A stretch of 31,268 nucleotides of DNA from positions 1-31,268 of IMG/VR virus record IMGVR_UViG_3300036828_001051, one strand, 5' to 3'. Position numbers and translations under genes: made by a program. The stretch comes from a virus. Shown here piece after piece: positions 10,390 to 27,333 of the stretch. Position 1 is the first letter of the stretch; each line of letters starts with the position of its first letter. A model generated the notes under the pieces. That model did no database searches. It saw only the letters and a list, made by a program, of their open reading frames with translations, and had not been told where the DNA came from.

Positions 10390-10856
10390 GCTTCGCCTGC
10401 TTTGTTTGGCTCTGTCTCCGCAAAGCTAGGCTTTGCTTTGCCTGCTTTGCTCGGCTACGTTAAGCTCGGCTACGTTAAGCTCGGCTACGCTCAGCCTGCT
10501 TTGCTTTGCTATGATTGCGCTGCGCTTTGCTTTACTGGGCTGTGCCAAGCTCCGCCTGCTTTGCTTCGCCACGCTTTGCTCGAACTCGGCTCTGCCCCGC
10601 TTGGCTTGACCTGCTTTGTTGGGCTGCGCTACGCTTCGCTCGGCTCGGTTGTGCTATGTTTTGCTCCGCTATGCCTGCTTTGCTGGGTTTTACTGAGCCG
10701 CGCTTCGCTTCGCTTAGCTTCGCTTCGCCTGCTTTGCTATGATTGCGCTGAGCGGAGCTTGGCTTCGCTATGCTAAGCCTGCTTTGCTGGGCTTCGCTTC
10801 GCGAAGCGAAGCTTCGTTATGCTTTGCTTAGCCTGCTTAGCTCGGCTTAAGCCTGC
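10390..10856 (-). repeat. Pentamer array 1
   Basis: About 467 non-coding bases made of plus-strand NGCTN pentamers (variants NGTTN, NACTN, NGCCN). CCTGCTT anchors occur at 10396, 10441, 10495, 10555, 10610, 10674, 10728, 10778, 10832 and 10852. Most anchor intervals equal 5k+4 (54, 64, 54, 54); the others contain one or two hexamers such as TGATTG or GAACTC. A 15-base unit GGCTACGTTAAGCTC is perfectly tandem at 10452-10486. TGCTATGATTGCGCTG occurs twice (near 10507 and 10736). The array starts inside the stop region of the 159-aa gene and ends at the primase start codon. Confidence 0.92.
10791..10812. repeat. 22-bp perfect palindrome inside array 1
   Basis: GCTTCGCTTCG followed by its exact reverse complement. 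It is made of pentamers turned round (…CGCTT CGCGA AGCGA AGCTT…) without breaking the 5-base phase. It could form a hairpin in either strand or a symmetric protein-binding site. Confidence 0.85.
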
Positions 10857-11514: not shown

Positions 11515-11559
11515 GGTGTTCTCCTTTCCAGGTCTATCGTTATCATCATATCAACCGAG

Positions 11560-11909
11560 CCTGCTTTGCTCCGCTCGGCTAAGCTCGGCTGTGCTAAGCC
11601 TGCTTTGTTGTGCTGTGCTGTACTAAGCTGGGCTGGGCTACGCCTGCTTTGTTTTGCTCGGCTCGGCTAGGCTATGTTGTGCTAGACTGCGCTCTGCTTC
11701 GTTTCGCTTCGCTATGCCCGCTTTGCTTTGCTCTGCTCAGTTGCGCTCAGTTGTGCTGCATGATGCTGAGCTACGCTGTGCTGCGCCTGCTTGGCTTGGC
11801 TCAGCTTGGCTCACCTAAGCTCTGCTGTGCTATGCCTGCTTCGCTGAAAGGTGGGCTGAGCACTGTTGCGCTCAGCCCCGTTTCGCTCTGCGTAGCTAGG
11901 CTCAGCCTG
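11560..11909 (-). repeat. Pentamer array 2
   Basis: About 350 non-coding bases of the same NGCTN pentamers. CCTGCTT anchors lie at 11560, 11599, 11643, 11786, 11835 and 11906, with a CCCGCTT variant at 11718. Intervals 39, 44 and 49 obey 5k+4; the others contain small phase slips. The last anchor overlaps the stop codon of the 226-aa gene. Segment 11838-11880 (CGCTGAAAGGTGGGCTGAGC...) is the most decayed part. Confidence 0.9.
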
Positions 11910-12590: not shown

Positions 12591-12708
12591 GTCTCTCTCC
12601 TTGCTTGGACTGGAAGCTGCGTGATTGCCGCTTCACTTTCTTTCGTATCACGTGCCGGTTCTGTTTGTCTGTAGCTATAATTGCATGGTAGCTATGTAGC
12701 TATGTTTG
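12591..12708 (-). promoter_or_regulatory. Leader with GTAGCTAT direct repeats
   Basis: Three copies of GTAGCTAT on the plus strand at 12671, 12688 and 12696 (the last two abut, period 8). A fourth copy lies at 13640 in the divergent regulatory region, where both share TGTAGCTATAATT. They may be operator sites or part of phage promoters. A plus-strand TATAAT at 12676 points into array 3 but has no good -35. CAGTCCAA also occurs twice on the minus strand. Confidence 0.4.
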
Positions 12709-13037
12709 GACTGCTTTGTTCAGCTAAGCTGCGTTAGGCTCCGCTCTGCTATGCTATGCCTGCTTCGCTTTGCTGCGTTAGGCTCAGTTAGGCTCCGCTC
12801 TGCTCTGCTATGCCTGCTTTGCTCGGCTACGTTGTGCTCTGCGACGTTGTGCTCTGCTTCGCTAGGCTCCGCTCGGCTCTGCCTGCTTTGCTCAGCTCAG
12901 CTCCGTTACGTTGTGCTAAGCTCCGCTGTGCCTGCTTTGTTTTGCTGTGCTAGGCTTCGTTCCGCTCCGCTCAGCTTTGCTCCGCCTGCTTTGCTATGCC
13001 ACGCTTAGCACAGCGAAGCTCGGCTCAGCTCAGCCTG
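12709..13037 (-). repeat. Pentamer array 3 (most regular)
   Basis: About 330 non-coding bases. CCTGCTT anchors at 12759, 12813, 12882, 12931, 12985 and 13034, plus ACTGCTTTG at 12710; intervals 49, 54, 69, 49, 54, 49 are all exactly 5k+4. Each unit is 9-13 pentamers (NGCTN, sometimes NGTTN) then a four-base NGCC, then restarts with TGCTTTG. Even the inverted stretch at 13006-13020 keeps the 5-base phase. It lies just past the terminator of the upstream operon and before the 226-aa gene. Confidence 0.93.
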
Positions 13038-13080
13038 CTTTGAAAAAGAAAGGGGCTGCCTCTTGTCCAGGCAGCCCCTT
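13038..13080 (-). terminator. Intrinsic terminator
   Basis: Perfect 12-bp stem: 13050-13061 (AAGGGGCTGCCT) pairs with 13069-13080, 7-base loop; on the minus strand it is followed by TTTCTTTTTC. It ends the two-gene operon 13561-13084, 3 bases after the last stop. Confidence 0.9.
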
Positions 13081-13083
13081 GTC

Positions 13084-13722: not shown

Positions 13723-14913
13723 GTGGGCAAAGAGTTCAAGCGGTCATACGGTATCGAAATCGAGGTGCACGCGCCGGTGGGCAAGACCCGCGCGGCGTTG
13801 GCGCACGCCATCACCGCAGCAGGCGTTAGCTGCAAAGCCATCGAGTACCGCGATCACTACGATCACGGCGGAGGCTGGGCCATCAAGACCGACAGGTCGG
13901 TTGCCGCCGACTACGGCTTCGAGGCGGTGTCGCCGCCGCTGACCGGCGAGGAAGGCTTCGCGCAAACGGAGAAGGTCTGCGCCGTGTTGCTGCAGCACGG
14001 GTGCCAGATCACCAGCAAATGCGGCTTGCACGTTCATATCGATGCCAGGAATCCGACGCGGATTGCGATCGAAAGCCTGCGGCGGCTGGCCTTGCTCTAT
14101 GTCGGGCATGAGCTGCTGATCGATGCCTGCATGCCAGCGTCCCGGCGCGGCAAGGCGGCAGCTAACGGCTATGCTCACGGCTTTGCTGGGGTGTCGGCGA
14201 ACGCGATCATGGCCTGTCGCGATGCTGGTTCGCTTGCTCAGGTCATGCGGCCCGGCCGGGTACCGGGCGGTGCGCTGCGCGAATATCGCTACGTGAAGCT
14301 CAACTTCGGCTCGATCTTGACTCACGGCACCGTCGAATTTCGTCATCATGGCGGCACCCTGGAGCCCGAGAAAATCCGTAACTGGGTGTACGCCTGCCAG
14401 CGCATGGTCGAATATGCTTTGCGTGGCGAGGATCAACAGGTGGTCCACGAAACGCGCCGGGTCATCGCCACCGTGCGCCAGGGAACCAAGCGGGCGATGG
14501 TGGTGGACATGCTGCTGCGGCCGGTAGGCTGCACCCATTCGGAGGTGTTGCTGGCCACCGGCTGGAAGCAGGTCTCGGTTGCCGACATCGCCCATTGCTA
14601 CGGCCTGACGCTGCGCACCGAATCTGTCTACGTCTCGGTGCGCGTCGAAGGGGCAAGGCGGCAGCGGGAGACGCGCTATTGGGGCGTGCGCAGCGAAGCT
14701 TCGGAGCGCCCGACGCGGCGGTCGGGGAGTGTTGTCCACAGGCAGTCGGCGAGCAGCTTGCTGGAGTTCTGCACCCGCCTGGGCATGGACGAGGACGAAA
14801 TCAAGTTCTGGCAGTCCCGCGCCGATATGTTTGCCAGAGCTACATTGGCGGTGTCGAGCGCACAGCCGCAGCCGGATATTTTGACCGCACTCAGGACTGG
14901 AGGGACGATCTGA
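13723..14913 (+). CDS. Amidoligase-family protein (glutamine-synthetase-fold COOH-NH2 ligase)
   Basis: 396 aa. The GTG at 13723 sits 6 bases after AGGAGG and is preferred to the TTG at 13669. Family marks: YGIEIEV at the start (metal-binding Glu on the first strand), WAIKTDRSV and FEAVSPPLTGEEG, KCGLHVHIDA, a YVGHELLIDACMPASRR segment, then YVKLNFGSILTHGTVEFRHHG (catalytic strand with Glu, Arg, His) and NWVYACQRMV. These match the 'putative amidoligase' family, predicted to form amide bonds between a carboxylate and an amine with ATP. The C-terminal 120 residues are basic and variable. A gamma-glutamylcyclotransferase-like gene two genes on supports gamma-glutamyl or similar peptide chemistry. 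Substrate unknown: phage protein tags, cell wall or DNA-linked groups are options. Confidence 0.85.
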   Translation: MGKEFKRSYGIEIEVHAPVGKTRAALAHAITAAGVSCKAIEYRDHYDHGGGWAIKTDRSVAADYGFEAVSPPLTGEEGFAQTEKVCAVLLQHGCQITSKCGLHVHIDARNPTRIAIESLRRLALLYVGHELLIDACMPASRRGKAAANGYAHGFAGVSANAIMACRDAGSLAQVMRPGRVPGGALREYRYVKLNFGSILTHGTVEFRHHGGTLEPEKIRNWVYACQRMVEYALRGEDQQVVHETRRVIATVRQGTKRAMVVDMLLRPVGCTHSEVLLATGWKQVSVADIAHCYGLTLRTESVYVSVRVEGARRQRETRYWGVRSEASERPTRRSGSVVHRQSASSLLEFCTRLGMDEDEIKFWQSRADMFARATLAVSSAQPQPDILTALRTGGTI

Positions 14914-15041
14914 TGACCAAGAGACTTGTTGCCAGCAAACGCGCCAAATTTGTTTACTTTTGGTCGCGAGTCCAGGTTGGTGCGGCCCACGAATGCTGGC
15001 CATTTAAGGGTGGGATAGTACGGAAAAGGAGGAGAACATGA
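14913..15041 (+). CDS. Short HNH-endonuclease-like fragment
   Basis: 42 aa. ATG overlaps the amidoligase stop (TGATG), with GGAGGG 8 bases upstream; its own stop overlaps the next ATG (ATGA). Residues 13-30 (FVYFWSRVQVGAAHECWPFK) are the usual opening of phage HNH endonucleases (FW.kV....eCW.W.G), but the HNH core is missing and a basic tail (VRKRRRT) follows, encoded by the next gene's ribosome site. Most likely a decayed homing-endonuclease remnant kept as a coupling frame; a functional mini-protein is possible. Confidence 0.55.
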   Translation: MTKRLVASKRAKFVYFWSRVQVGAAHECWPFKGGIVRKRRRT

Positions 15042-15586
15042 CTAGAAAGTATTACCTTAGCTACGGCAGCAACCTCCATATCAGCAGCATGCGGCGGCGC
15101 TGCCCTGATGCCAAGCCGCTGTCGAAAATGCTGATCAACAATGCCCGGCTGGTGTTCCGCGGCGTGGCCGATCTGAGCTTCGAGCGTGGGCATCTGGCTC
15201 CGCTTGGGTTGTGGGAGATCAGCGCCAAGGATGAAGCTGTCCTCGATAGCTATGAGGGGGTCAATAGCGGAATGTACAGCAAGTACGATATCAAGGTTGA
15301 TGATGTAGGCAACACCGCGCTGATCTACCTGATGAATGACGATGGCATCTTTCCGCCGAGCGCCCAGTATGCCGCCATCATCCGCGCCGGGTACTGTGAT
15401 TTCGGCTTGGACGAAGCTTTCCTTGACGATGCGATCTGCCACTCGTACCGGGCGGTGTCGCACAGCGCGCAGACCCGTGCGCGACGCAAGCGGCAGAAGC
15501 TGAGCAACACGCACCGCTATCTGGCCGAACTGCCGAAGGAATTGAAGAATGCGGCTTGGAAGGCTGAAGGGGAGGGGATAAAATGA
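15038..15586 (+). CDS. Gamma-glutamylcyclotransferase-like (AIG2/GGCT fold)
   Basis: 182 aa with AAAGGAGGAGAAC at the start. YYLSYGSNLHISSMRRRCP is the diagnostic YGSNL loop; LGLWEISAKDEAVLDSYEGV holds the Asp/Glu region where the catalytic Glu lies (LDSYEG), and YSKYDIKV follows as in the family. The tail is basic. In the family it cyclises a gamma-glutamyl group to 5-oxoproline and frees the amine, or handles gamma-glutamyl-amines. Paired with the amidoligase it could trim or reverse the linkage. The stop overlaps the next ATG by ATGA, so the genes are translationally coupled. Confidence 0.88.
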   Translation: MTRKYYLSYGSNLHISSMRRRCPDAKPLSKMLINNARLVFRGVADLSFERGHLAPLGLWEISAKDEAVLDSYEGVNSGMYSKYDIKVDDVGNTALIYLMNDDGIFPPSAQYAAIIRAGYCDFGLDEAFLDDAICHSYRAVSHSAQTRARRKRQKLSNTHRYLAELPKELKNAAWKAEGEGIK

Positions 15587-16338
15587 AACGCTATGAAAAT
15601 AGCCAAGGTGTTTTCTTCATTGACGAGGCCGATCAGATGTTTGGCACGGAGATCGAGCGCGGCTACCATCTTGAGCTGGGTTTGGCCATGCATTACTCCA
15701 GGCCCGAGGATCACATCCTTGTACTCGGCGCTCATGTCGGCGCGGTGGCTATTCCGCTCTCGGCGGTGCGGCGGGAGGTTGTGGCTGTGGAGGCCAACCC
15801 GCGCACGTTTCGCGCTCTGGTTATGAACGTCAATTTGAATAGACGGCCCAATATCCGCTCGCTCCAAGCCGCAGCCAACGACCAGACTGGGGAAATCCAG
15901 TTTGTGCTCAATACCAGAAACAGCGGCAGCTCGAAGCGCATGCCCAAATTCGCCCACCGCGATTATTTCGACGACGACCCGCAGATTGTCACTGTCGTCG
16001 CTTGGCGCATGGACGATCTGGTCATGCACACAAACCTGATCTTCATGGATATCGAAGGCTCCGAGCACGCCGCCATGCTCGGCATGCCGCGGCTCCTGGG
16101 GGAGGCGCGAGCCGTGATTACGGAGTTCCTGCCACATCACCTCACCCACGTCGCCGGGATCACCGTCGAGCAATTCGTAGAGCCGTTGCTGCCACATTTT
16201 GACCGGCTGGAAATTCCAGGTGTGAGCAATCCGATCGAGCAACCGGCTTTTGTTCCGCTGCTGCAAGGCTTGGTTGATCGAGGCGTGTTCTGCCCAGCAA
16301 TCGTGTTCTACAAATCAGGAGGGAGCTATGGAATATAA
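15583..16338 (+). CDS. FkbM-type SAM-dependent methyltransferase
   Basis: 251 aa; GGAGGGG ahead of the ATG, 4-base overlap with the previous gene. SAM-binding motifs: HILVLGAHVGAVAIPLS (motif I, with Gly-His-Gly in place of the usual G-N-G) and VVAVEANPRTFRALVMNV (acidic end of strand 2), then LIFMDIEGSEHAAMLGM, the FkbM signature (D.EG.E..vL.G). FkbM enzymes O-methylate sugars, antibiotics or modified compounds. In this operon it could methylate the product of the amidoligase/GGCT pair. Substrate unknown. Confidence 0.8.
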   Translation: MKRYENSQGVFFIDEADQMFGTEIERGYHLELGLAMHYSRPEDHILVLGAHVGAVAIPLSAVRREVVAVEANPRTFRALVMNVNLNRRPNIRSLQAAANDQTGEIQFVLNTRNSGSSKRMPKFAHRDYFDDDPQIVTVVAWRMDDLVMHTNLIFMDIEGSEHAAMLGMPRLLGEARAVITEFLPHHLTHVAGITVEQFVEPLLPHFDRLEIPGVSNPIEQPAFVPLLQGLVDRGVFCPAIVFYKSGGSYGI

Positions 16339-16987
16339 CGCCGCAATGACGAAAGTCTTCGACAAGGTGCCGCCGCGAATGCGGCGGCTGCCGATTACCG
16401 AAGAGGGCTGGCCTCAGCTTTGGTTCGCGGGGATCACGGAAGCGGGCAAGCCGGACCTGCGCTGTGCTAATCCGGCGAAACGAGTGCAGGCAGTTACCCA
16501 CGATTTGTGCTGGTTGTGCGGGCAAACTTTGGGCGTGTGGAAGGTCTTCGTGACCGGCCCGATGTGTGCAGTTAACCGTACCACCAGCGAGCCGCCGTGC
16601 CATCTGGAGTGCGCGCAGTTCGCCGTCCTGGCGTGCCCGTTCCTGTCACGGCCGAAAATGAAGCGTAATGATGCCGACCTCCCTGACGGCTATGAAGCGC
16701 CTCCTGGTTATGCCATCATGCGTAATCCTGGCGCCACGGCGTTGTGGGTGTGCAAGAGCTACCGGCCGTTCCGCGTCGATTCTACGGAGTGGTTGATTGA
16801 AATGGGCGAGCCGCGCGAGGTGCTTTGGTATGCTGAAGGCGGCTTTGCCACGCGAGCCCAGGTCAGGGCCTCGATCGATAGCGGCTACCCAGCATTGTTG
16901 AAGATCGCCAAAGAGCAAAGCGGTGAAGCGGTGGTGTCGTTGGCGAGGAAGCTGGAAGGCGTGAAACGGTTTCTGCCTGCGGCATGA
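16328..16987 (+). CDS. Conserved Cys-rich phage protein, unknown
   Basis: 219 aa starting at the ATG after GGAGGGAGCT; overlaps the methyltransferase by 11 bases. Residues about 55-110 hold CWLCGQTL, VTGPMCAVNRTTSEPPCH, CAQFAVLACPFL: a CxxC plus Cys/His cluster that probably binds zinc. I recognise the pattern (CW.CG...GPMC..NR.tSEPPcH..CA....CPFL) from many phage and prophage genomes without a known function. The C-terminus is a basic helix. Last gene of the plus operon, 7 bases before the terminator. Confidence 0.82.
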   Translation: MEYNAAMTKVFDKVPPRMRRLPITEEGWPQLWFAGITEAGKPDLRCANPAKRVQAVTHDLCWLCGQTLGVWKVFVTGPMCAVNRTTSEPPCHLECAQFAVLACPFLSRPKMKRNDADLPDGYEAPPGYAIMRNPGATALWVCKSYRPFRVDSTEWLIEMGEPREVLWYAEGGFATRAQVRASIDSGYPALLKIAKEQSGEAVVSLARKLEGVKRFLPAA

Positions 16988-16993
16988 TAAGAA

Positions 16994-17021
16994 AAAAGGG
17001 GCCTGTTTCCAGGCCCCTTTT
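16994..17021. terminator. Bidirectional intrinsic terminator
   Basis: 12-bp stem 16994-17005 (AAAAGGGGCCTG) with 17010-17021, 4-base loop (GAAA on the minus strand). Plus strand has a T4 run; minus strand ends in T6. It serves the converging plus operon and the 63-aa minus gene. Confidence 0.92.
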
Positions 17022-17035
17022 CCCTATTTAACTGT

Positions 17036-17227
17036 TTACTCGTTACTCTCCCAACCAGCGTCCCATCCGCATTCCCAGGACACCGCTTGGAGAGAATCAT
17101 GCGGATACGGATTTTCCGGCGGTTCATCGGGTTGATTCGCTTTAACCGCTTTGTAACCGAGGTCGTATCCTACCAAGTACGCTTCGCCGTCGAACTCTTC
17201 GACTTTTCCAACACGTAAAGGTTTCAT
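17036..17227 (-). CDS. RMF/CrpP-like small protein
   Basis: 63 aa, AAAGGAGAGAGAC before the ATG. The C-terminal half has AYLVGYDLGYKA, NPYP and WECGWDAGW, the spacing (G...G....NPyp......W..GW) of ribosome modulation factor-like proteins. RMF dimerises 70S ribosomes; phage or plasmid relatives of this fold may bind other partners. A gene of its own transcription unit: a consensus promoter on one side and the bidirectional terminator on the other. Possibly expressed early and strongly. A second RMF-like protein is encoded at 24.7-25.1 kb. Confidence 0.6.
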   Translation of the reverse strand: MKPLRVGKVEEFDGEAYLVGYDLGYKAVKANQPDEPPENPYPHDSLQAVSWECGWDAGWESNE

Positions 17228-17262
17228 GTCTCTCTCCTTTTGTGGACTTGTTCCACGGGATT

Positions 17263-17291
17263 ATTATCTCATAATCAGTTAGAAAAGTCAA
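17263..17291 (-). promoter_or_regulatory. Sigma70-type promoter for the RMF-like gene
   Basis: Minus strand TTGACT (17291-17286), 17-base spacer, GATAAT (17268-17263), 36 bases before the start codon. It touches the stop codon of the helicase gene. Best host-type promoter in the window. Confidence 0.85.
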
Positions 17292-19688
17292 TCAAATAAT
17301 CGCTTTCCCGTCGATGATCTGCCGGAACAAATCGTTCCCTTCCTTGATCGCCTTCAGGATCGATTCGTCCACCGAATCGGCACAGACCAGATCGTAGCTG
17401 AAAACATGCTTGTGCTTGGAATCCTGCCGCTCGAAACGGCGGCGGCATTGCTTGCGCACATCAGGCCGCACCGGGCTCTCATAGAAGAAGCCGTATTTCG
17501 CCGCCTGCAGGTTCAGTCCCTCGCCGAAGCTGTTCTGCATGACCAGGACGCGGACGTTCGGATCGTCGTTGAACCGCCTGCGTGCTCCACCTTGATCCTT
17601 GGTCTTGCCGTAGAGGTGGAGCGCGCCGATCCCAAGCCGGTGCAGTTCCTTGATGATGCGCAGGCCCGACCATGTGTATTCGTAGAAAACGATAGCTTTG
17701 TCGTCCACGCTTTCCAGCAAGGTCAGCAGCAGTTCCAGCTTCGGGTTGTCGGGGAAGGTGAACTGTGCGCTCTTGCCGGTGTCGTCGTCCTTGAAGCCGA
17801 CGAAGCCGGAACTGATCTGGCGCATACGCAGCCAGGCGTTCTTCTGTTCGCGGTAGTTGCCGACGCTTTCGCGCATGGTCGTCACCGCGCGCCGGTAGTA
17901 GGTTTCGGCGTCCTCGGGCAATGAGAACTTCTTGACGATCTCCACCACCTTGGGCAGGTCGGCTTCATCGGCTTCGAAGCGGATCGAGCGATTGTTGAGA
18001 ATGCGGTTGAGCAAGCCGCTTTTCGATTTCTTGAATATGAACTTGGCGGTGCCGAACAAATCCTTCTGCTCGGAGAAGAACGCGGCGCGGAACAGGGCCA
18101 GGGTCTCGCCCAGGGTCTCGCCGCCGTCCACCATGCGCATCTGCCCCCAGAGGTCGGTGGGATCACGCCCGAGCGGCGTGGCTGACAACGCCATGACCAG
18201 CTTCGCGTTAGTGGCGATGCGGTTGCATATTCGAAATGGCAGCTTGTTCTTCGATTTGGCTCCGTGGCTTTCGTCGAGCACGATCCCATCGAATTTGTCG
18301 GTCAGCGCCCGCATCAGCCGTGGACTGACATCGAGGCGATTGCGTCCCTTCCTGCCGCGGCGTTGGTCCTTCACTTTTTCGCAGGCGAGGTAATACAGGC
18401 CCGAATACGTCTCGATCGTGACCAGGGCGTCGCTGCAGCCGAGCATGAGGTGCTTGGCTTCCGTCTCCGATGGCATGATGCAATAGCTCAGGTTGGGGAA
18501 GTGCTTCTCGATTTCGAGCTTCCATTCTTCCTTGTTGGCCTTGCGCGGCACCAGGACGAGAACGTGCCTGATCTGCTTGCGCCGTTGCAGGTGCAAAGCC
18601 ACAGCCAAGGTGGTGATTGTCTTGCCTGAATTGTGATGGCATAGCCCGTGCGCGATATAATTTTCATAGACAGGGACATGAATATCGTAGTAGACATCAT
18701 ATCGGAGAAAACGGACACTGGCTATGGAGTCAAATGATGAAGCGTCCTTTCCAAATCCAAATGCCGCGGCTTCGTTATTTAGTCTCTCTCGGCTGGCGAC
18801 TGACTGAGTTGGCTGCGAAGTATAACTGCGACCGTCGTATGGTTCATCAACGCATCCAAACTCTGGATATCCTTTACAATTATAGCAAAGGCTCTCCTGG
18901 CTCGCGAAATGGTTCTTGGAAGGGCGGCCGATCAAAGAGGAAAGGCTATTGGTACATTCTGAGGCCCAATCACCCGAATGCGACCAAAGGGGGCTATGTT
19001 CTGGAATCACGGTTGGTAATGGAGAAAAAGTTGGGGCGTTTGCTGTCTCGTTCGGAGGTAGTCCATCATAAAGACAGCAACCTTGACAATAACAAACTAA
19101 GCAATCTGTTTGTTTATGGCAGCAACGGTGAGCACTTGGCTGAAACTCTGAAAGGCCAATGTCCGAACTGGACTGAGGATGGCAAGCGTCGAATACAGGA
19201 AGGCGTGCACCGAGCTGTTGTGAAGCGAAAAAAGAAAGCCATCCAGCATCAGTTAAGAAGCGGTGCCGCGCGGTTACCACGATAATTCGGCCAGACGCGA
19301 ATCGGATTTCAAATAGCGCTGTTGGTCCTAATTGAAATGGACATTCAGCTTCGACTAAACGCAAGCCGTTTTGCGTTCTCGCCCAAACCAGCAGCGGCTT
19401 CCCACGCCGATATAATTCGTCAATCCTGATTGGACCGCGGTCTGTCTCAATCAAGGTTTCGGCACCTACACATCCCGTGTCGGCCCAGAGCGCGAAGCGA
19501 AGAGCGCGCAGCACCACCAGCAGCATGATCTTCTGGTGCAGCCGCAGCTTCTGCCATACGGCCGGATCGACCCGGCGTTTGTCAGCAAGCCGATCCAGAG
19601 CTTCAGGCTTCAGTCTTTTGTAAACTGCCCAGTTGCTTCTGGGGCGGTTGAGGAAGGCTGGGACGGCGCGTGGGTCGAGGGCTCCCAT
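17292..19688 (-). CDS. SNF2-type helicase/ATPase interrupted by an intein
   Basis: 798 codons: extein 517 aa plus intein 281 aa (residues 73-353). N-extein ends ALWADTG and C-extein starts SGKTITTLA, so splicing would rebuild the Walker A motif DTGSGKT. Other helicase marks: VLVLVPRKANKEEW (motif Ia), GIVLDESHGAK (DESH-box, motif II), LVMALSATPLG (III), VLVMQNSFGEGLNLQAA (V) and QCRRRFERQ (VI). SNF2-type proteins move along double-stranded DNA; phage versions assist replication or recombination. Before splicing the ATPase should be dead. Start at 19688 with AAGG 5 bases upstream; overlaps the previous gene by 79 bases. No cofactor genes nearby. Confidence 0.9.
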   Translation of the reverse strand: MGALDPRAVPAFLNRPRSNWAVYKRLKPEALDRLADKRRVDPAVWQKLRLHQKIMLLVVLRALRFALWADTGCVGAETLIETDRGPIRIDELYRRGKPLLVWARTQNGLRLVEAECPFQLGPTALFEIRFASGRIIVVTARHRFLTDAGWLSFFASQQLGARLPVFDACHPQSSSDIGLSEFQPSAHRCCHKQTDCLVCYCQGCCLYDGLPPNETANAPTFSPLPTVIPEHSPLWSHSGDWASECTNSLSSLIGRPSKNHFASQESLCYNCKGYPEFGCVDEPYDGRSYTSQPTQSVASRERLNNEAAAFGFGKDASSFDSIASVRFLRYDVYYDIHVPVYENYIAHGLCHHNSGKTITTLAVALHLQRRKQIRHVLVLVPRKANKEEWKLEIEKHFPNLSYCIMPSETEAKHLMLGCSDALVTIETYSGLYYLACEKVKDQRRGRKGRNRLDVSPRLMRALTDKFDGIVLDESHGAKSKNKLPFRICNRIATNAKLVMALSATPLGRDPTDLWGQMRMVDGGETLGETLALFRAAFFSEQKDLFGTAKFIFKKSKSGLLNRILNNRSIRFEADEADLPKVVEIVKKFSLPEDAETYYRRAVTTMRESVGNYREQKNAWLRMRQISSGFVGFKDDDTGKSAQFTFPDNPKLELLLTLLESVDDKAIVFYEYTWSGLRIIKELHRLGIGALHLYGKTKDQGGARRRFNDDPNVRVLVMQNSFGEGLNLQAAKYGFFYESPVRPDVRKQCRRRFERQDSKHKHVFSYDLVCADSVDESILKAIKEGNDLFRQIIDGKAII
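18630..19472 (-). other. Intein in the helicase Walker A motif, carrying an antisense homing endonuclease gene
   Basis: 281 aa. Splicing block A starts at Cys (CVGAETLIETDRGPI); block B is IIVVTARHRFLTDAGW with the T-x-x-H; block F VYYDIHVPVYENYIAHG; block G CHHN with the next extein residue Ser. All four catalytic positions (Cys1, block B His, penultimate His, terminal Asn, +1 Ser) are present, so it should splice. Where an endonuclease domain normally lies between blocks B and F (intein residues about 94-246), the sense translation is a Cys/Ser-rich sequence with no family features, because those bases encode an HNH enzyme on the other strand while the sense frame stays open. Confidence 0.9.
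18734..19285 (+). CDS. HNH homing endonuclease encoded antisense inside the intein
   Basis: 183 aa (182 if the second of two adjacent ATGs is used); GGAG lies 4 or 7 bases ahead. Residues 20-42: helix-turn-helix (LTELAAKYNCDRRMVHQRIQ). Residues 65-140: GYWYILRPNHP, GGYVLESRLVMEKKLGRLL, EVVHHKDSNLDNNKLSNL, the typical phage HNH nuclease core with the His-His pair, Asn and the EHR-like helix. The C-terminal 40 residues are basic. It lies wholly within the intein bases 18630-19472. The last 30 or so residues are antisense to splicing block B. In the family such enzymes cut intein- or intron-less alleles to spread the element. The gene is visibly more AT-rich than its neighbours, a sign of transfer. 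Confidence 0.88.
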   Translation: MMKRPFQIQMPRLRYLVSLGWRLTELAAKYNCDRRMVHQRIQTLDILYNYSKGSPGSRNGSWKGGRSKRKGYWYILRPNHPNATKGGYVLESRLVMEKKLGRLLSRSEVVHHKDSNLDNNKLSNLFVYGSNGEHLAETLKGQCPNWTEDGKRRIQEGVHRAVVKRKKKAIQHQLRSGAARLPR

Positions 19689-19834
19689 TGGTGCCTTGTT
19701 TCCCTATCTATGGCTACGTCAATGAGATTGCGAATCACTTTGGAGCGGTTCCGGTTTCCGAGCCAGCGAAAGTGGTGTTCGTAGAGGTAGACGTTGAGAC
19801 ATTTGTAGGGCTCAGGAGTTCTTGGGCGAGGCAT
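19610..19834 (-). CDS. Small protein, possible ribbon-helix-helix regulator
   Basis: 74 aa from the ATG at 19834, which overlaps the preceding stop (TGATG). Residues 8-45 (PYKCLNVYLYEHHFRWL, NRSKVIRNLIDVAID) look like a ribbon-helix-helix unit: a short strand, a helix, a turn and a second helix with ...R..lid.ai. The rest is polar, Pro/Ser/Thr-rich. It could be an autoregulator, but no operator is identified. It overlaps the helicase by 79 bases. Confidence 0.55.
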   Translation of the reverse strand: MPRPRTPEPYKCLNVYLYEHHFRWLGNRNRSKVIRNLIDVAIDRETRHQWEPSTHAPSQPSSTAPEATGQFTKD

Positions 19835-20076
19835 CAAACGTGTGTCTCCAGATCGTGTGTTTCCAGATATTTCACCAGATAATTCTGGTAGAACTGCGCC
19901 TTGCGGTAGTCCTCGGCTTCGCTACCCTTCCTCTTAGCGCGGGCGAGATAACAGTGGATAGTGAACTTCATGGCGCCGACGAACTCGTCCCTGGTCAGCC
20001 AAGCCTCCATGACTTTGATGACCTCGTACACGGTGTCACCGCCGTAATGGCTTGGATGATCTACTTTCTCACACAT
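19834..20076 (-). CDS. DUF3310 protein
   Basis: 80 aa. DHPSHYGGDTVYEVIKVMEAW, EFVGAMKFTIHCYLARAKRKG and DYRKAQFYQNYLVKYL are the complete family pattern (HPSHY...EvI......f..g...Ky..Ra..K....D..KA..Y). The same domain forms the C-terminal part of phage T7 gp1.7, a nucleotide kinase-related protein; here it stands alone. A role in phage nucleotide metabolism is likely given the MazG-like gene nearby. Confidence 0.88.
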   Translation of the reverse strand: MCEKVDHPSHYGGDTVYEVIKVMEAWLTRDEFVGAMKFTIHCYLARAKRKGSEAEDYRKAQFYQNYLVKYLETHDLETHV

Positions 20077-20162
20077 AACGCCTCCGTACCCGGATAATCC
20101 GCCATCGCCTTGGACTGTTCTTCGCCGTCACTATACAATACGATGATTGTGACGCTTTTCAA
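20061..20162 (-). CDS. Possible 33-aa peptide (TTG start)
   Basis: The frame MKSVTIIVLYSDGEEQSK, ending in LCVRK, begins at a TTG that overlaps the upstream TGA and ends 16 bases inside the DUF3310 gene, the overlap style of this operon. Codon third positions are GC-rich as in real genes. Ribosome site (GGCGG) is too close to be convincing. It is the only thing seen in the 82-base gap. Confidence 0.35.
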   Translation of the reverse strand: MKSVTIIVLYSDGEEQSKAMADYPGTEALCVRK

Positions 20163-20377
20163 TACCGCCAGATGACCGGACCTCGAACATTGAAGCCGGA
20201 CTCATCATCAGATATGACTTCGCCTTTAACCTCTCCCCACCGAACCGGTGGCCCGCCGAATGGATTCTTAACCGCTGGGCTTTTAATTTCTACTTTCTCC
20301 TCTTGGGGCGGCTGCTCTTTTTTAACAAGCTTCGCACCACGCAAACCAGCGGATTCCAAACGAGGAAACTTGCTCAT
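20159..20377 (-). CDS. Small basic/acidic protein, unknown
   Basis: 72 aa. ATGA overlap with the MazG-like gene. N-terminus is basic (KFPRLESAGLRGAKLVKK), the middle Glu/Lys/Pro-rich, and the C-terminus beta-type (EVKGEVISDDESGFNVRG, PVIWRY). Probably largely disordered. No family recognised; its overlap with a clear gene is the main support. Confidence 0.6.
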   Translation of the reverse strand: MSKFPRLESAGLRGAKLVKKEQPPQEEKVEIKSPAVKNPFGGPPVRWGEVKGEVISDDESGFNVRGPVIWRY

Positions 20378-20739
20378 ATCGTCATTCCCAGGTCGATCTT
20401 CTCTTGATTGCGTTTGGCGAACTTCTCTTCAGGCAGGCTTAGGCAGCGCTCCAGTTCGATTTTGAACACATCTTCGGGGTCCCAGCCGGACGATAGCGAA
20501 TAGACAGCCGCACAGAGCAGTACGCCGCCAAGTTCCTGCTTCAATTCCCCTGGCGGCTTGCGGTAGACCATGTTCACCAGATCGACCATCTTCTCGCGCG
20601 GAATGCCGTTGGCCTGCGCCAGCTCTACGGCTTCCTCGGCCAAGCGTAACGAGCGAATCGGAAGATTCATCATGTGCTCGTGTCCGAAGCAGCGTCTACC
20701 CCAAGCCCAAGCTGTTACCGCCATTTTATGGAACTGCAT
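20374..20739 (-). CDS. MazG-like NTP pyrophosphohydrolase
   Basis: 121 aa, GGAGGTAAATA before the ATG. RLAEEAVELAQA gives the ExxE metal motif and GELKQELGGVLLCAAVYS the second Glu motif (E..QE.GGV), the standard all-alpha MazG-type arrangement of phage proteins; the usual final Asp is replaced within GGV. Family members hydrolyse NTPs or dNTPs to NMP and pyrophosphate and can lower host alarmone or clean the nucleotide pool. Neighbours DUF3310 and DUF1937 fit nucleotide metabolism. Confidence 0.78.
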   Translation of the reverse strand: MQFHKMAVTAWAWGRRCFGHEHMMNLPIRSLRLAEEAVELAQANGIPREKMVDLVNMVYRKPPGELKQELGGVLLCAAVYSLSSGWDPEDVFKIELERCLSLPEEKFAKRNQEKIDLGMTI

Positions 20740-20750
20740 TATTTACCTCC

Positions 20751-20972
20751 TCAATCAGGGATTTTCTTCTTCGGCCACTGGCGCATCGCCCGCGCCTGCA
20801 TGCGCGCGTCGGCGACGATGTCCTGCGGGCATCCGGCGCCCTCGGCGCGGTCGGCCCATTCCATCACCAAAGCTGAAGCCAAGGCGTCCTGGGCGCGAAG
20901 GACGAAATAAGGCTCACTGGTGCCGTCAAGCTTCTTGAGCATTTCCCGGTTACGCACCGATCCTGGATTCAT
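20751..20972 (-). CDS. Conserved small phage protein
   Basis: 73 aa. EPYFVLRAQDALASALVMEWA, then GCPQDIVADARMQARAMRQWP, ending KKIPD. I recognise this pattern (EP.fvLRAqD......v..Wa......A...A..M..W....iPD) in many phages; no function is known. Conserved spacing in the operon. Confidence 0.75.
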   Translation of the reverse strand: MNPGSVRNREMLKKLDGTSEPYFVLRAQDALASALVMEWADRAEGAGCPQDIVADARMQARAMRQWPKKKIPD

Positions 20973-24673: not shown

Positions 24674-25057
24674 CTATACCCGGAGAGTCCCTGGCGGGTC
24701 GCACTCGAAACGGAACGGCCACAGCAACGCGGTGTCGCCACGCTTGCGAGCTTCATCGCGTTGATGAGCTGTGCTCCAGCCCATGCGCCAAGAGACAGCG
24801 AGATCGCTGTTGGCGAATGGTGGGCACCTCTCGACAGGTATGCCGAGACGGCAGGCGGCGAAGCCGTCGCGTTGTGCGTATGACCAAGCCATGCGTATGG
24901 ATTTCTCCTTCTCTTCGGGAGAGACTTCGATCACCTTGATGTCAGCGATATTGAATTTCATGACTTCCTCCTCGCAGTATTGCAGCCATTGGTCTATGGC
25001 CCATTGCTCACCAGGATTACGCATCAGGACCCAATAAGCCATATCGAGAACGGTCAT
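24674..25057 (-). CDS. RMF-like protein with two possible starts
   Basis: 127 aa from the ATG at 25057 (GGGAG 8 bases ahead, ATGA overlap), or 95 aa from the in-frame ATG at 24961, which has AGGAGGAAGTC. The core AWSYAQRDGFAACRLGIPVE, RCPPF, VSWRMGWSTAH has the RMF-type spacing (G..A...Gi...rcP.......WrmGW). The N-terminal 32 residues (MAYWVLMRNPGEQWAIDQWL) are a separate helix. Both starts may be used, or the shorter may be the ancestral gene. Compare the RMF-like gene at 17.0-17.2 kb. Confidence 0.65.
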   Translation of the reverse strand: MTVLDMAYWVLMRNPGEQWAIDQWLQYCEEEVMKFNIADIKVIEVSPEEKEKSIRMAWSYAQRDGFAACRLGIPVERCPPFANSDLAVSWRMGWSTAHQRDEARKRGDTALLWPFRFECDPPGTLRV

Positions 25058-25341
25058 GGTATTGTCTCCCTGGACCAGAATGTCTCACCCAAGCTATTGG
25101 TCTCCTTAATCCACCGTGTCCACATCAGGTCTTCTGTCGGCACAAAGTGCGGATACTGATCGGCTGGTGTTAGGCCAAGTTTCTCCTGACCTTGTCGCCA
25201 CTCGCGCAGCAATCTTTGTCTCCAGCCCTTTCGTGGTGGCCACTTTACTCCCCATTGTGCAAGCCGCGCTTTGGTCCAGCCACCACGTGGAGACCTCCCA
25301 GCTTCCATCTCCTCCGCGGACACACCTTCACCTTTCTTCAT
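25054..25341 (-). CDS. Small phage protein, unknown
   Basis: 95 aa; the ATG at 25341 has GGAGG 8 bases ahead. GGWTKARLAQWGVKWPPRKGW is the notable conserved part (homeodomain-like 'wTk..L..wGv.wPp..GW...L'), followed by a basic helix and WTRWIKETNSLGETFW. A homing-endonuclease-like or DNA-binding helix is possible. First gene after the structured RNA region. Confidence 0.65.
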   Translation of the reverse strand: MKKGEGVSAEEMEAGRSPRGGWTKARLAQWGVKWPPRKGWRQRLLREWRQGQEKLGLTPADQYPHFVPTEDLMWTRWIKETNSLGETFWSRETIP

Positions 25342-25439
25342 ATCTACAACCTCCACAACCATAGCTCCGCCCTTTCCGCTGCATGGTGTACGTGTCGCGT
25401 GTCCGCTTGGATGGCGTGGACGTGCGAAACGTAGCTACA

Positions 25440-25700
25440 TGCTCCCTTGACGAAGGGTGACCCGGCTATAGCGGATCAGCGTACTCGGCTCCCTATTGGG
25501 TCTCATGACCCTGACGTGTTGTCCCCACGGCATCCGCTCAGACCATATCGGAGGTCTCGATCGTATCCAGAAGCCATCGCGGCTTTCGGCTGGACCGATA
25601 GTCAATCGGCTGACAGCCCGATACGACGCACTAACCGAGCGGGGGTTGCCCGCCATGCAGACCGGGTTGCAATGGGCACAGCATAGCCCGGATTTGTGAG
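25440..25700 (-). ncRNA. Candidate structured RNA, HEARO/omega-RNA-like
   Basis: No credible gene here. On the minus strand hairpins follow one another: 25662-25666 with 25687-25691 (CCGGG/CCCGG), 25639-25643 with 25649-25653, 25540-25544 with 25553-25557, 25498-25502 with 25507-25511 (GGGTC ATGA GACCC) and 25444-25448 with 25453-25457 (CCCTT CGTC AAGGG). A long-range 7-bp helix joins 25532-25538 and 25470-25476 (AGCGGAT/ATCCGCT). GCCGAAAGCC, then AGCGGATGCC, and a final GTCACC-hairpin-GAG occur in the same order as in the one IscB omega RNA scaffold I remember. The region 5' of the CCGGG stem would be the guide. No IscB is present in the window. Confidence 0.5.
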
Positions 25701-26079
25701 TTGAGGATTCTCCATGCCTCACGGCTACCACCTTGCGGTTATCGGCACAGGAGCTGGTGCCGTGGCCCTTGGTTTGCTCCGCTGCCAAGCTTCAGCGCCG
25801 TCCCGGCCATTTCCTGCCGGACATTTGGCGTTACGCTCTCAGTCAGCATGAAGCCGGGAGCGTTCACGCCGGAAAAGGCGTGGTCCGCTGGTACCGGATT
25901 TTGGGGGTTGCCTTGTTGTGGGGCGCTGTGTTACACAAAGAGCGCCATCACGCTGGCATTTCCATTTCCGGTCGTCACGGACTTGGATTTGGGGCGGGTC
26001 GTCTTACCGGCGATCCGCCTCGACTATTTTCAGGATGCCTCCGTCTTCATCCCATTGTCAAGAACGGGCCACAAACCCG
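25701..26079 (-). other. Non-coding region with strong hairpins, unassigned
   Basis: About 380 bases with no convincing frame on either strand. Minus-strand hairpins: 25922-25927 with 25941-25946 (GGCGCT/AGCGCC, with an inner GTGT-A-ACAC), 25865-25870 with 25877-25882 (CACGCC/GGCGTG, loop TTTTCC), 25800-25822 (GTCCGGC...GCCGGGAC, bulged) and 25743-25748 with 25757-25762 (CGGCAC/GTGCCG). It may be the 5' part of one large RNA of about 650 bases with the downstream candidate, or a decayed mobile element. TTGACA at about 26060 could be a -35 but no -10 fits. Confidence 0.4.
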
Positions 26080-26739
26080 CTAGGATCGCCGTAGAGCGCG
26101 TTTCGAACGCGAGGCGGTAGGGATGGCCCTCCTGGCCGGTTTCGACGCCCCAGCGTCCTTCCCAGGCGGTTTCACAGGCGGGTTCCATGGGATCAGGCGC
26201 ACGCCAGTCCGCGGCAGGTAGAGCGGATGCTTCGGGCTGCCGTCCAGATTGGTGCCCAGACACCACAAGGGAACTTTCAACTTGGTCAGCAAGGCTGTCA
26301 CATTGTCGAGGTGCGGTTGCAGCGCCCGGTGCAACCGTCCCCAGGCGCAGACCACATAGGCCGCGTCGGTGGCGAACCTTTTGATGAAGCCCAGGTTCTC
26401 GTCCGAGCACGGCTGTGGGTGGGTCAGCAGTGCTGACGGATCGGTGGTGCGGAAGTCGCAGACATTGGCCTTGACGTAGCGGAGGCAATTCAGCTCGCGT
26501 TGGGTGAAGATCAATTCCCATCTCACGGTCGGATCGTCGAAGCTCGACGTGGCCGTGCTCGGGTTCATGCCGATCCATAGAGCTATCTTGCCGTTCTTCT
26601 GTGCTTCGCCAGCCCAACGTTGCAGCCAATGCCGATAGAGCCCGTCGCTGGAGAAGCGGGCGGAGCCGTGAACGCCCGCGGGCAGCGGCCAGAGCCGCTT
26701 GCCGCCTGGGTCATGCTTGGTCTCGGGGAACAGCGTCAT
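26080..26739 (-). CDS. DUF1643 protein
   Basis: 219 aa. YRHWLQRWAG, LWIGMNPSTATSSFDDPTVRW (family signature NPSTA...DPTvr), VKANVCDFRTTDPSALL (v.vN.fa.R.TdP..L), YVVCAWGRLH and CLGTNLDGSPKHPLYLP (G.p.HPLY) cover the whole DUF1643 family pattern. Function unknown. The C-terminal 25 residues are Lys/Arg/Pro-rich and unlike the family, so the original end may have been rearranged when the adjacent structured region arose. Confidence 0.85.
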   Translation of the reverse strand: MTLFPETKHDPGGKRLWPLPAGVHGSARFSSDGLYRHWLQRWAGEAQKNGKIALWIGMNPSTATSSFDDPTVRWELIFTQRELNCLRYVKANVCDFRTTDPSALLTHPQPCSDENLGFIKRFATDAAYVVCAWGRLHRALQPHLDNVTALLTKLKVPLWCLGTNLDGSPKHPLYLPRTGVRLIPWNPPVKPPGKDAGASKPARRAIPTASRSKRALRRS

Positions 26740-26742
26740 GCC

Positions 26743-27333
26743 TTATCGCTGGGTCAGTGACTGATTTACGATTCTGGCCAAGGCCGGGTGAATCAATTTG
26801 GCGGTTCGCATGCGGGTCGCAGTTCCTTCATAGGTGTGCTTGTAGACGGTGGTTTGCGCCCCGCCCGTGCCGTGGGCGCCGGTCCGGGGATCGTGCCTTG
26901 GTATGTGCAGGTTGAGGAGTGGATGATCAGCAAGATATTGTTTAAGCTCCTCCATGAAAGCCCGCTGGCGTCTTGGGCTCATCGTTCGCGAACTGTCGTA
27001 GCCTTTGATCCACGTGCCGAATACGTGTTTGTAGCGGATGGAAAGCTTCGGTTGCCGGTTTGGTCTAATCATGGCCAGGATGTAGATCGTCGAAGGCTCG
27101 GTATGCACGTAAAGCACCGGATGACCAAAGAGCCTCTCCCCGGCTTCGCGAATCGCGTTGGATATTCCGCATTCCCAGGGAACACCGCGCCCATCCGGCT
27201 TGAAATGGCGGAATAGGATCGGGAGGCTTTTTTCCGTGGAAGCATCGAGATAGGGGGTATCGACCCAAGCTCCATCATCATAGTACAAGCGTCTTGTCGG
27301 CAGGGTTAACAGCTTCTTTTCGGTGATACGCAT
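26743..27333 (-). CDS. Phage protein, unknown
   Basis: 196 aa; AGGAAAA ahead of the ATG; stop 3 bases before the next gene. Mixed alpha/beta sequence: VDTPYLDASTEKSLPILF, VPWECGISNAIREAGERLF, VLYVHTEPSTIYILAMIR, then a basic C-terminus. No family recognised. The gene order is conserved-looking with its neighbours; function is not proposed. Confidence 0.7.
   Translation of the reverse strand: MRITEKKLLTLPTRRLYYDDGAWVDTPYLDASTEKSLPILFRHFKPDGRGVPWECGISNAIREAGERLFGHPVLYVHTEPSTIYILAMIRPNRQPKLSIRYKHVFGTWIKGYDSSRTMSPRRQRAFMEELKQYLADHPLLNLHIPRHDPRTGAHGTGGAQTTVYKHTYEGTATRMRTAKLIHPALARIVNQSLTQR

Follow-up and report, generated by a model that had tools for sequence, protein, structure and literature searches.

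A covarying non-coding RNA family found in phages and in Bradyrhizobium genomes

The non-coding interval and its surroundings

The window analyzed here, the whole stretch of 31,268 nucleotides of a 31-kb IMG/VR virus record (IMGVR_UViG_3300036828_001051), belongs to a phage whose distant relatives include Edwardsiella phage ZHS and the Vibrio Mardecavirus group, with ~25-35% amino-acid identity in the polymerase and the helicase. A DUF1643 gene and the gene for a 95-aa phage protein are separated by about 720 bases that contain no coding frame (Table 1). Six-frame codon scores gave no sustained positive frame in 25363-26080 and clearly positive values in the adjoining genes, and a simple gene caller left 25058-26079 empty; the two agree with the preliminary description, which had placed a structured non-coding region at 25440-26079. 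The structured non-coding stretch was upheld, and the limit at 25440 was not, the conserved tail continuing to 25363. Judging from the sequence, the 95-aa gene is more likely to start at 25341, after its own GGAGG, than at the AUG that follows this tail.

Compared with 20 shuffles per strand, the 718-nt stretch folded with z-scores of -4.8 (minus) and -4.1 (plus), the core delimited below with only -1.45 and the 5' half with -2.71, and other segments of the same genome fold as well as or better than the RNA region. Folding energy by itself is a weak argument for an RNA, and covariation, not energy, was decisive in calling a structured RNA. Mean folding z-scores reached their window-wide minimum at 16801-17475 (minus strand), which includes a gap between convergent genes.

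Several further features of the window were noted. The second gene downstream of the RNA, 24674-25057 (minus strand), gave a weak Pfam match to RMF, the ribosome modulation factor (E 9e-4, below the cut-off). ARAGORN called a tRNA-Gly at 26835-26910 (plus strand), antisense to the gene at 26743-27333; the call is probably false. Three intergenic gaps (10390-10856, 11515-11909 and 12591-13083) are full of degenerate five-base repeats of the GCTCT/GCTAT type, one of them with a 54-base period. The gene for an SNF2-type helicase (17292-19688, minus strand) carries an intein-like interruption (Pfam Intein_splicing, E 2e-6), within which an HNH-like ORF lies on the opposite strand (18617-19285, plus strand).

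Table 1. Positions of the RNA, its elements and associated features (window coordinates unless a locus is named)
Feature	Position	Strand	Basis or remark
DUF1643 gene, 5' neighbor of the RNA region	26080-26739	-	Pfam E 2e-26
Non-coding RNA region, whole	25363..26080	-	no coding frame; fold z -4.8
5' half, non-coding	25692..26080	-	fold z -2.7; RNA membership judged from position only
Conserved family core, 12 helices	25442..25691	-	R1 match, 90.3 bits
H1 hairpin CCGGG-CUAUGCUGUGCCCAUUGCAA-CCCGG, best conserved element	25662..25691	-	R1 match and covariation
H3 hairpin GCGGG-CAACC-CCCGC	25639..25653	-	covariation
H4 UCGUAUC/GAUACGA, around H5, H6 and a GCGA hairpin	25561..25626	-	sequence; family helix position covaries
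H5/H6 GGCUG..CCGAU-UGACU-AUCGG..CAGCC; loop kisses H11	25588..25618	-	covariation
H8 CGUG-GGGACAA-CACG	25515..25529	-	helix 10 of alignment A4, 7/7 pairs covary
H9 GGGUC-AUGA-GACCC	25498..25511	-	sequence; equivalent hairpins in relatives; outside scored model
Conserved single strand AGGGAGCCGAGUACGC, family form AGGGAAACGAGUAYSC	25479..25494	-	
H10 UGAUCC..GGGUCA	25458..25478	-	helix 11 of A4, 6/6 pairs covary
H11 CCCU-UCGUCA-AGGG; loop pairs with H6 loop	25444..25457	-	covariation
Conserved 3' tail GCGGAAAGGGCGGAGCU, then AUG at 25362	25363..25379	-	same tail in most members
95-aa phage gene, 3' neighbor of the RNA region	25054-25341	-	
Isolated H1-type hairpin CUAYGCUGUG..UUGCRA, L025	8723-8750		Y-R covariation; phage non-coding region
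Isolated H1-type hairpin CUAYGCUGUG..UUGCRA, L094	about 5693-5665	-	Y-R covariation; phage non-coding region
FDWD/FDWN small-protein gene, L142	7426-7905		
FDWD/FDWN small-protein gene, L145	8219-8683		
FDWD/FDWN small-protein gene, L146	8182-8670		
FDWD/FDWN small-protein gene, L147	8276-8764		

Homologues and covariation

Searches of IMG/VR with three proteins of the window phage as queries returned no close relatives. The DnaB helicase as query gave 80 loci of distant relatives, in which neither blastn nor model R2 found the RNA; several of them contain other long structured gaps. One helicase relative (L025) has a short hairpin motif that also occurs in the window. Searching with a degenerate pattern of this motif turned up a clear homologue in L088, a 57-kb phage (71-nt alignment, E 7e-8), and a genome scan with the same pattern retrieved a stretch of Bradyrhizobium altum Pear77 (L103). 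The remaining genome hits lie in coding sequence, mostly cyanobacterial MutS, and were therefore set aside as chance or protein conservation. The L103 stretch, used as query against Bradyrhizobium genomes, returned many copies, B. altum itself having three; these Bradyrhizobium copies align across 500-650 nt, with many loops conserved. Cultured phages and plasmids held no similar DNA. L025 and L094 were not counted as members, the part in common being the H1-type hairpin only (L025: 14.4 bits); L094 resembles a compact RNA of ~300 nt that has a promoter-like TTGACA and ends in what looks like a terminator.

Relatives of the window phage also held long non-coding, apparently structured gaps in L010 (5133-5808), L012 (6573-7120), L040 (8972-9800) and L073 (17033-18152), which are matched neither by Rfam nor by the window RNA family and are possibly further RNA families. 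Nine type II hammerhead ribozymes, all on the same strand, were seen in L011 (IMGVR_UViG_3300019889_000009) at 14333-20761, and one more in L035.

Ten Bradyrhizobium core sequences were aligned (A3), and covariance model R1 was built from these alone, with the window left out; the A3 consensus has 50 pairs, 26 of which are changed on both sides. R1 matched the window over its full length (model 1-236 of 236) at 25442-25691 on the minus strand, with 90.3 bits and E 6e-25, and the L088 phage, which is temperate, with 76.9 bits and E 6e-21. Across 24 members, two-sided changes occur at 45/50 pairs and 93.2% of the cells are paired, as against 67.5% after shuffling and about 41-45% with partners slid; the covariation score is 0.585 vs 0.179 (shuffles) and ~0.07-0.09 (slid controls), a value that no shuffle matches. 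Because the 24-member alignment was fitted to the model, the unfitted A3 count (26/50) is the cleaner of the two. In both counts, helices of the core have covariance support in homologous sequences. It is near certain that the window region belongs to an RNA family, the window core being a conserved, heavily covarying fold of ~250 nt.

Within this fold, the loops of H6 and H11 can pair (in the window, UUGAC at 25605-25601 with GUCAA at 25451-25447). Their mean complementarity is 5.4 nt vs 4.3 nt with shuffled partners (0/2000 shuffles as high), and the loop pairs covary: UGAC/GUCA, UGACC/GGUCA, GACAUG/CAUGUC, GGUAUG/CAUACC and GGCAUG/CAUGCC. The long-range helix H13 is supported more weakly (p about 0.01). 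A 7-bp helix, AGCGGAT/ATCCGCT, had been proposed to enclose several hairpins; only its outer AGCG/CGCT part is weakly supported (p about 0.01), and the full helix is not conserved in the family, its 3' strand pairing locally instead in H10 (TGATCC/GGGTCA).

Beyond the core, a tail of the type GGAAAGGGCGRAGCURUG is common to nearly all members, and the window carries the family tail GGAAAGGGCGRAGCU at 25379-25363. A 5' domain (GUCGAGAUCGGCCAUGAUC..; GAUGAAUGACCGCA) is present in many Bradyrhizobium members; nhmmer found nothing of it in the window or L088, and L177, L178, L175 and L183 also appear to be without it, so that it is not a defining feature. For the 5' half of the window region (25692-26080), no homologue was detected.

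Judged against Rfam 15 and open-access papers only, the family is previously unrecognized: none of the Rfam 15 families matched the window, even at E 10, and no paper describing the RNA was found in an open-access library.

Genomic settings and possible roles

Each family member forms a sharply bounded unit of 520-590 nt, and the sequences flanking different members are unrelated; L139 and L140, for example, are 95% identical across 553 nt and not at all beyond, and L180 and L182 are 88% identical. The copies are often located near phage integrase, recombination, terminase or tail genes. A tyrosine integrase is encoded in the locus of nine core copies (a raw count, without a random-locus baseline), resolvases occur in the loci of other copies, and a tRNA gene sometimes adjoins. 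In L187, the integrase-bearing phage of L088, the RNA lies 3' of Cro/CI-type regulators and 5' of exonuclease and RecT genes; in L177, upstream of Erf and RecE-type exonuclease genes; in L196, before the small and large terminase subunits and head genes; and in L197, before the tape measure gene. The gene beside the RNA is thus not constant from copy to copy, which argues for an independent RNA. In several Bradyrhizobium islands, an unnamed small protein with FDWD/FDWN is encoded just 5' of the RNA unit, with no Pfam or PHROG match where tested.

Occurrence is patchy, covering phages as well as phage-derived, integrase-bearing islands in Bradyrhizobium and in the family around it. The RNA was found in 18/265 Bradyrhizobium species, with up to three copies per genome, and, in a sample of the family, in 13/391 genomes, some of them not part of the genus sample; samples of the order and the phylum (about 395 genomes each) yielded none outside Bradyrhizobium, the filters used in these scans being of a kind that loses weak matches.

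On present evidence, the RNA is somewhat more probably than otherwise a free-standing phage RNA that works like GOLLD and ROOL and is unrelated to them in sequence. Lying on the same strand as its neighbors, it would be transcribed from the minus strand within the phage operon, would fold into a compact tertiary structure, and, like GOLLD and ROOL, would act in trans as the RNA itself while the phage runs through its life cycle, rather than as a nuclease guide or as a regulator of one particular downstream gene. The combination of a conserved fold, unpaired loops, a covarying tertiary contact and a variable neighbor points to such an RNA acting as itself in trans. No protein partner was found. 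More tentatively, and short of an even chance, it may represent a new class of its own among large phage RNAs that act in trans, with no relation to GOLLD, ROOL, OLE or HEARO; such an RNA would assemble, via its conserved kissing loops, into an ordered and possibly multimeric complex in the service of the temperate phages of Bradyrhizobium and its relatives.

The main rival, given that the RNA is directed toward the next gene and that its tail resembles a start site, is a cis-acting operon leader, that is, a very large 5' untranslated element controlling elongation (antitermination, as in the HK022 put RNAs) or translation of the genes just downstream. The RNA is on the strand of the downstream genes and heads early or recombination genes in L187 and L177; in the copies inspected closely (window, L144, L196 and L197), the next gene follows within 20-50 nt; and the tail GGAAAGGGCGGAGCUAUG has the look of a ribosome-binding site followed by a start codon, the AUG of the window tail being in frame with a 102-aa reading of the next gene. 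However, different copies precede unrelated genes (terminase, a tail gene, small early genes or that of the 95-aa protein); in most, no ORF follows the tail AUG, and in several the AUG itself is missing. Known antitermination leaders are far smaller than this RNA. We consider a leader function unlikely, if still to be taken seriously.

Less probable again is a mobile element made of the RNA alone, one that, like an IS, an intron or HEARO, moves from site to site by itself; in its favor are the sharp ends, the near-identical copies in unrelated flanks and the presence of up to three copies per genome. Comparison of four units with 257 Bradyrhizobium genomes revealed no clean empty site and no junction-crossing match, the group I/II intron models of Rfam and the HEARO model matched neither the window nor its relatives, and phage mosaicism yields the same picture.

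The preliminary description had likened the 3' part to a HEARO/omega RNA, which, standing alone, could guide IscB in trans. Its HEARO-like strings, GCCGAAAGCC, AGCGGATGCC and the GTCACC-hairpin, do occur on the minus strand and are the only point in favor of this reading, but they sit in other helices (GTCACC spans the junction of two of them, from the 3' strand of H10 into the 5' strand of H11), and the resemblance was rejected as coincidence. The HEARO model RF02033 has no match in the window at E up to 10, nor in the phage members or the Bradyrhizobium members tested; a run over 60 Bradyrhizobium genomes returned nothing, the control genomes being likewise silent in that run. The IscB domain RRXRR (PF14239) is absent from the 31-kb record. 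A guide function of this kind is highly improbable.

That the region is no RNA at all, only degraded coding sequence or a hairpin-bearing DNA element (a replication origin, for instance), might fit its position upstream of replication genes and the unremarkable single-sequence folding energy of the core, but has next to no probability in view of two-sided covariation at 45/50 pairs with G-U tolerated, conserved loops, a model that prefers one strand and the lack of a coding frame.

Relation to known RNA classes

To our knowledge, very few RNAs of such size and such dense covariation have been described from bacteria or phages. GOLLD, ROOL and OLE, all solved recently, are RNA-only complexes of unknown function, and a further unrelated family would make it possible to ask independently whether large phage RNAs have a common purpose. 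The presence of the RNA in named bacteria, such as B. altum Pear77 with its three copies, makes expression, induction and deletion accessible in the laboratory.

The HK022 put RNAs are phage antitermination leaders, with put sites of about 65-70 nt. In some members, the RNA described here similarly is a structured RNA heading a phage early operon; it differs from put in being several times larger and in having no fixed downstream gene. With HEARO, the IscB omega RNA (RF02033), it has in common a few short strings and the occurrence as discrete units in varied contexts, and differs from it in the absence of a covariance-model match at the thresholds tried, of IscB and of an identified guide region, and in its fold.

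The nearest analogues are GOLLD and ROOL, ornate phage and prophage RNAs, of unknown role, that assemble into RNA cages. The preliminary description had also suggested another large phage RNA class such as these. A large structured minus-strand phage RNA is what was found, whereas covariance searches with the whole of Rfam 15, including the HEARO, GOLLD and ROOL models, gave no match in the window at E up to 10; the likeness is one of kind, not of membership. The trait common to GOLLD and ROOL, a large covarying RNA linked to phages or prophages with no protein, recurs here. The ten sRNAs described in Bradyrhizobium (PMC5082802) are small, with size markers of 60-160 nt, and were judged against the family by size. 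GOLLD has different helices and gave no Rfam match, and the host range of the present RNA is much narrower; many GOLLD and ROOL loci carry a tRNA array, whereas this RNA lies in none. ROOL is an ornate RNA of about 650 nt, found in prophages and phages and with pseudoknot-type contacts (PMC12286853). Our RNA resembles it in size class, ornate fold, phage or prophage home and pseudoknot-type contacts, and is distinguished from it by the lack of an Rfam match and of any detected sequence or layout in common.
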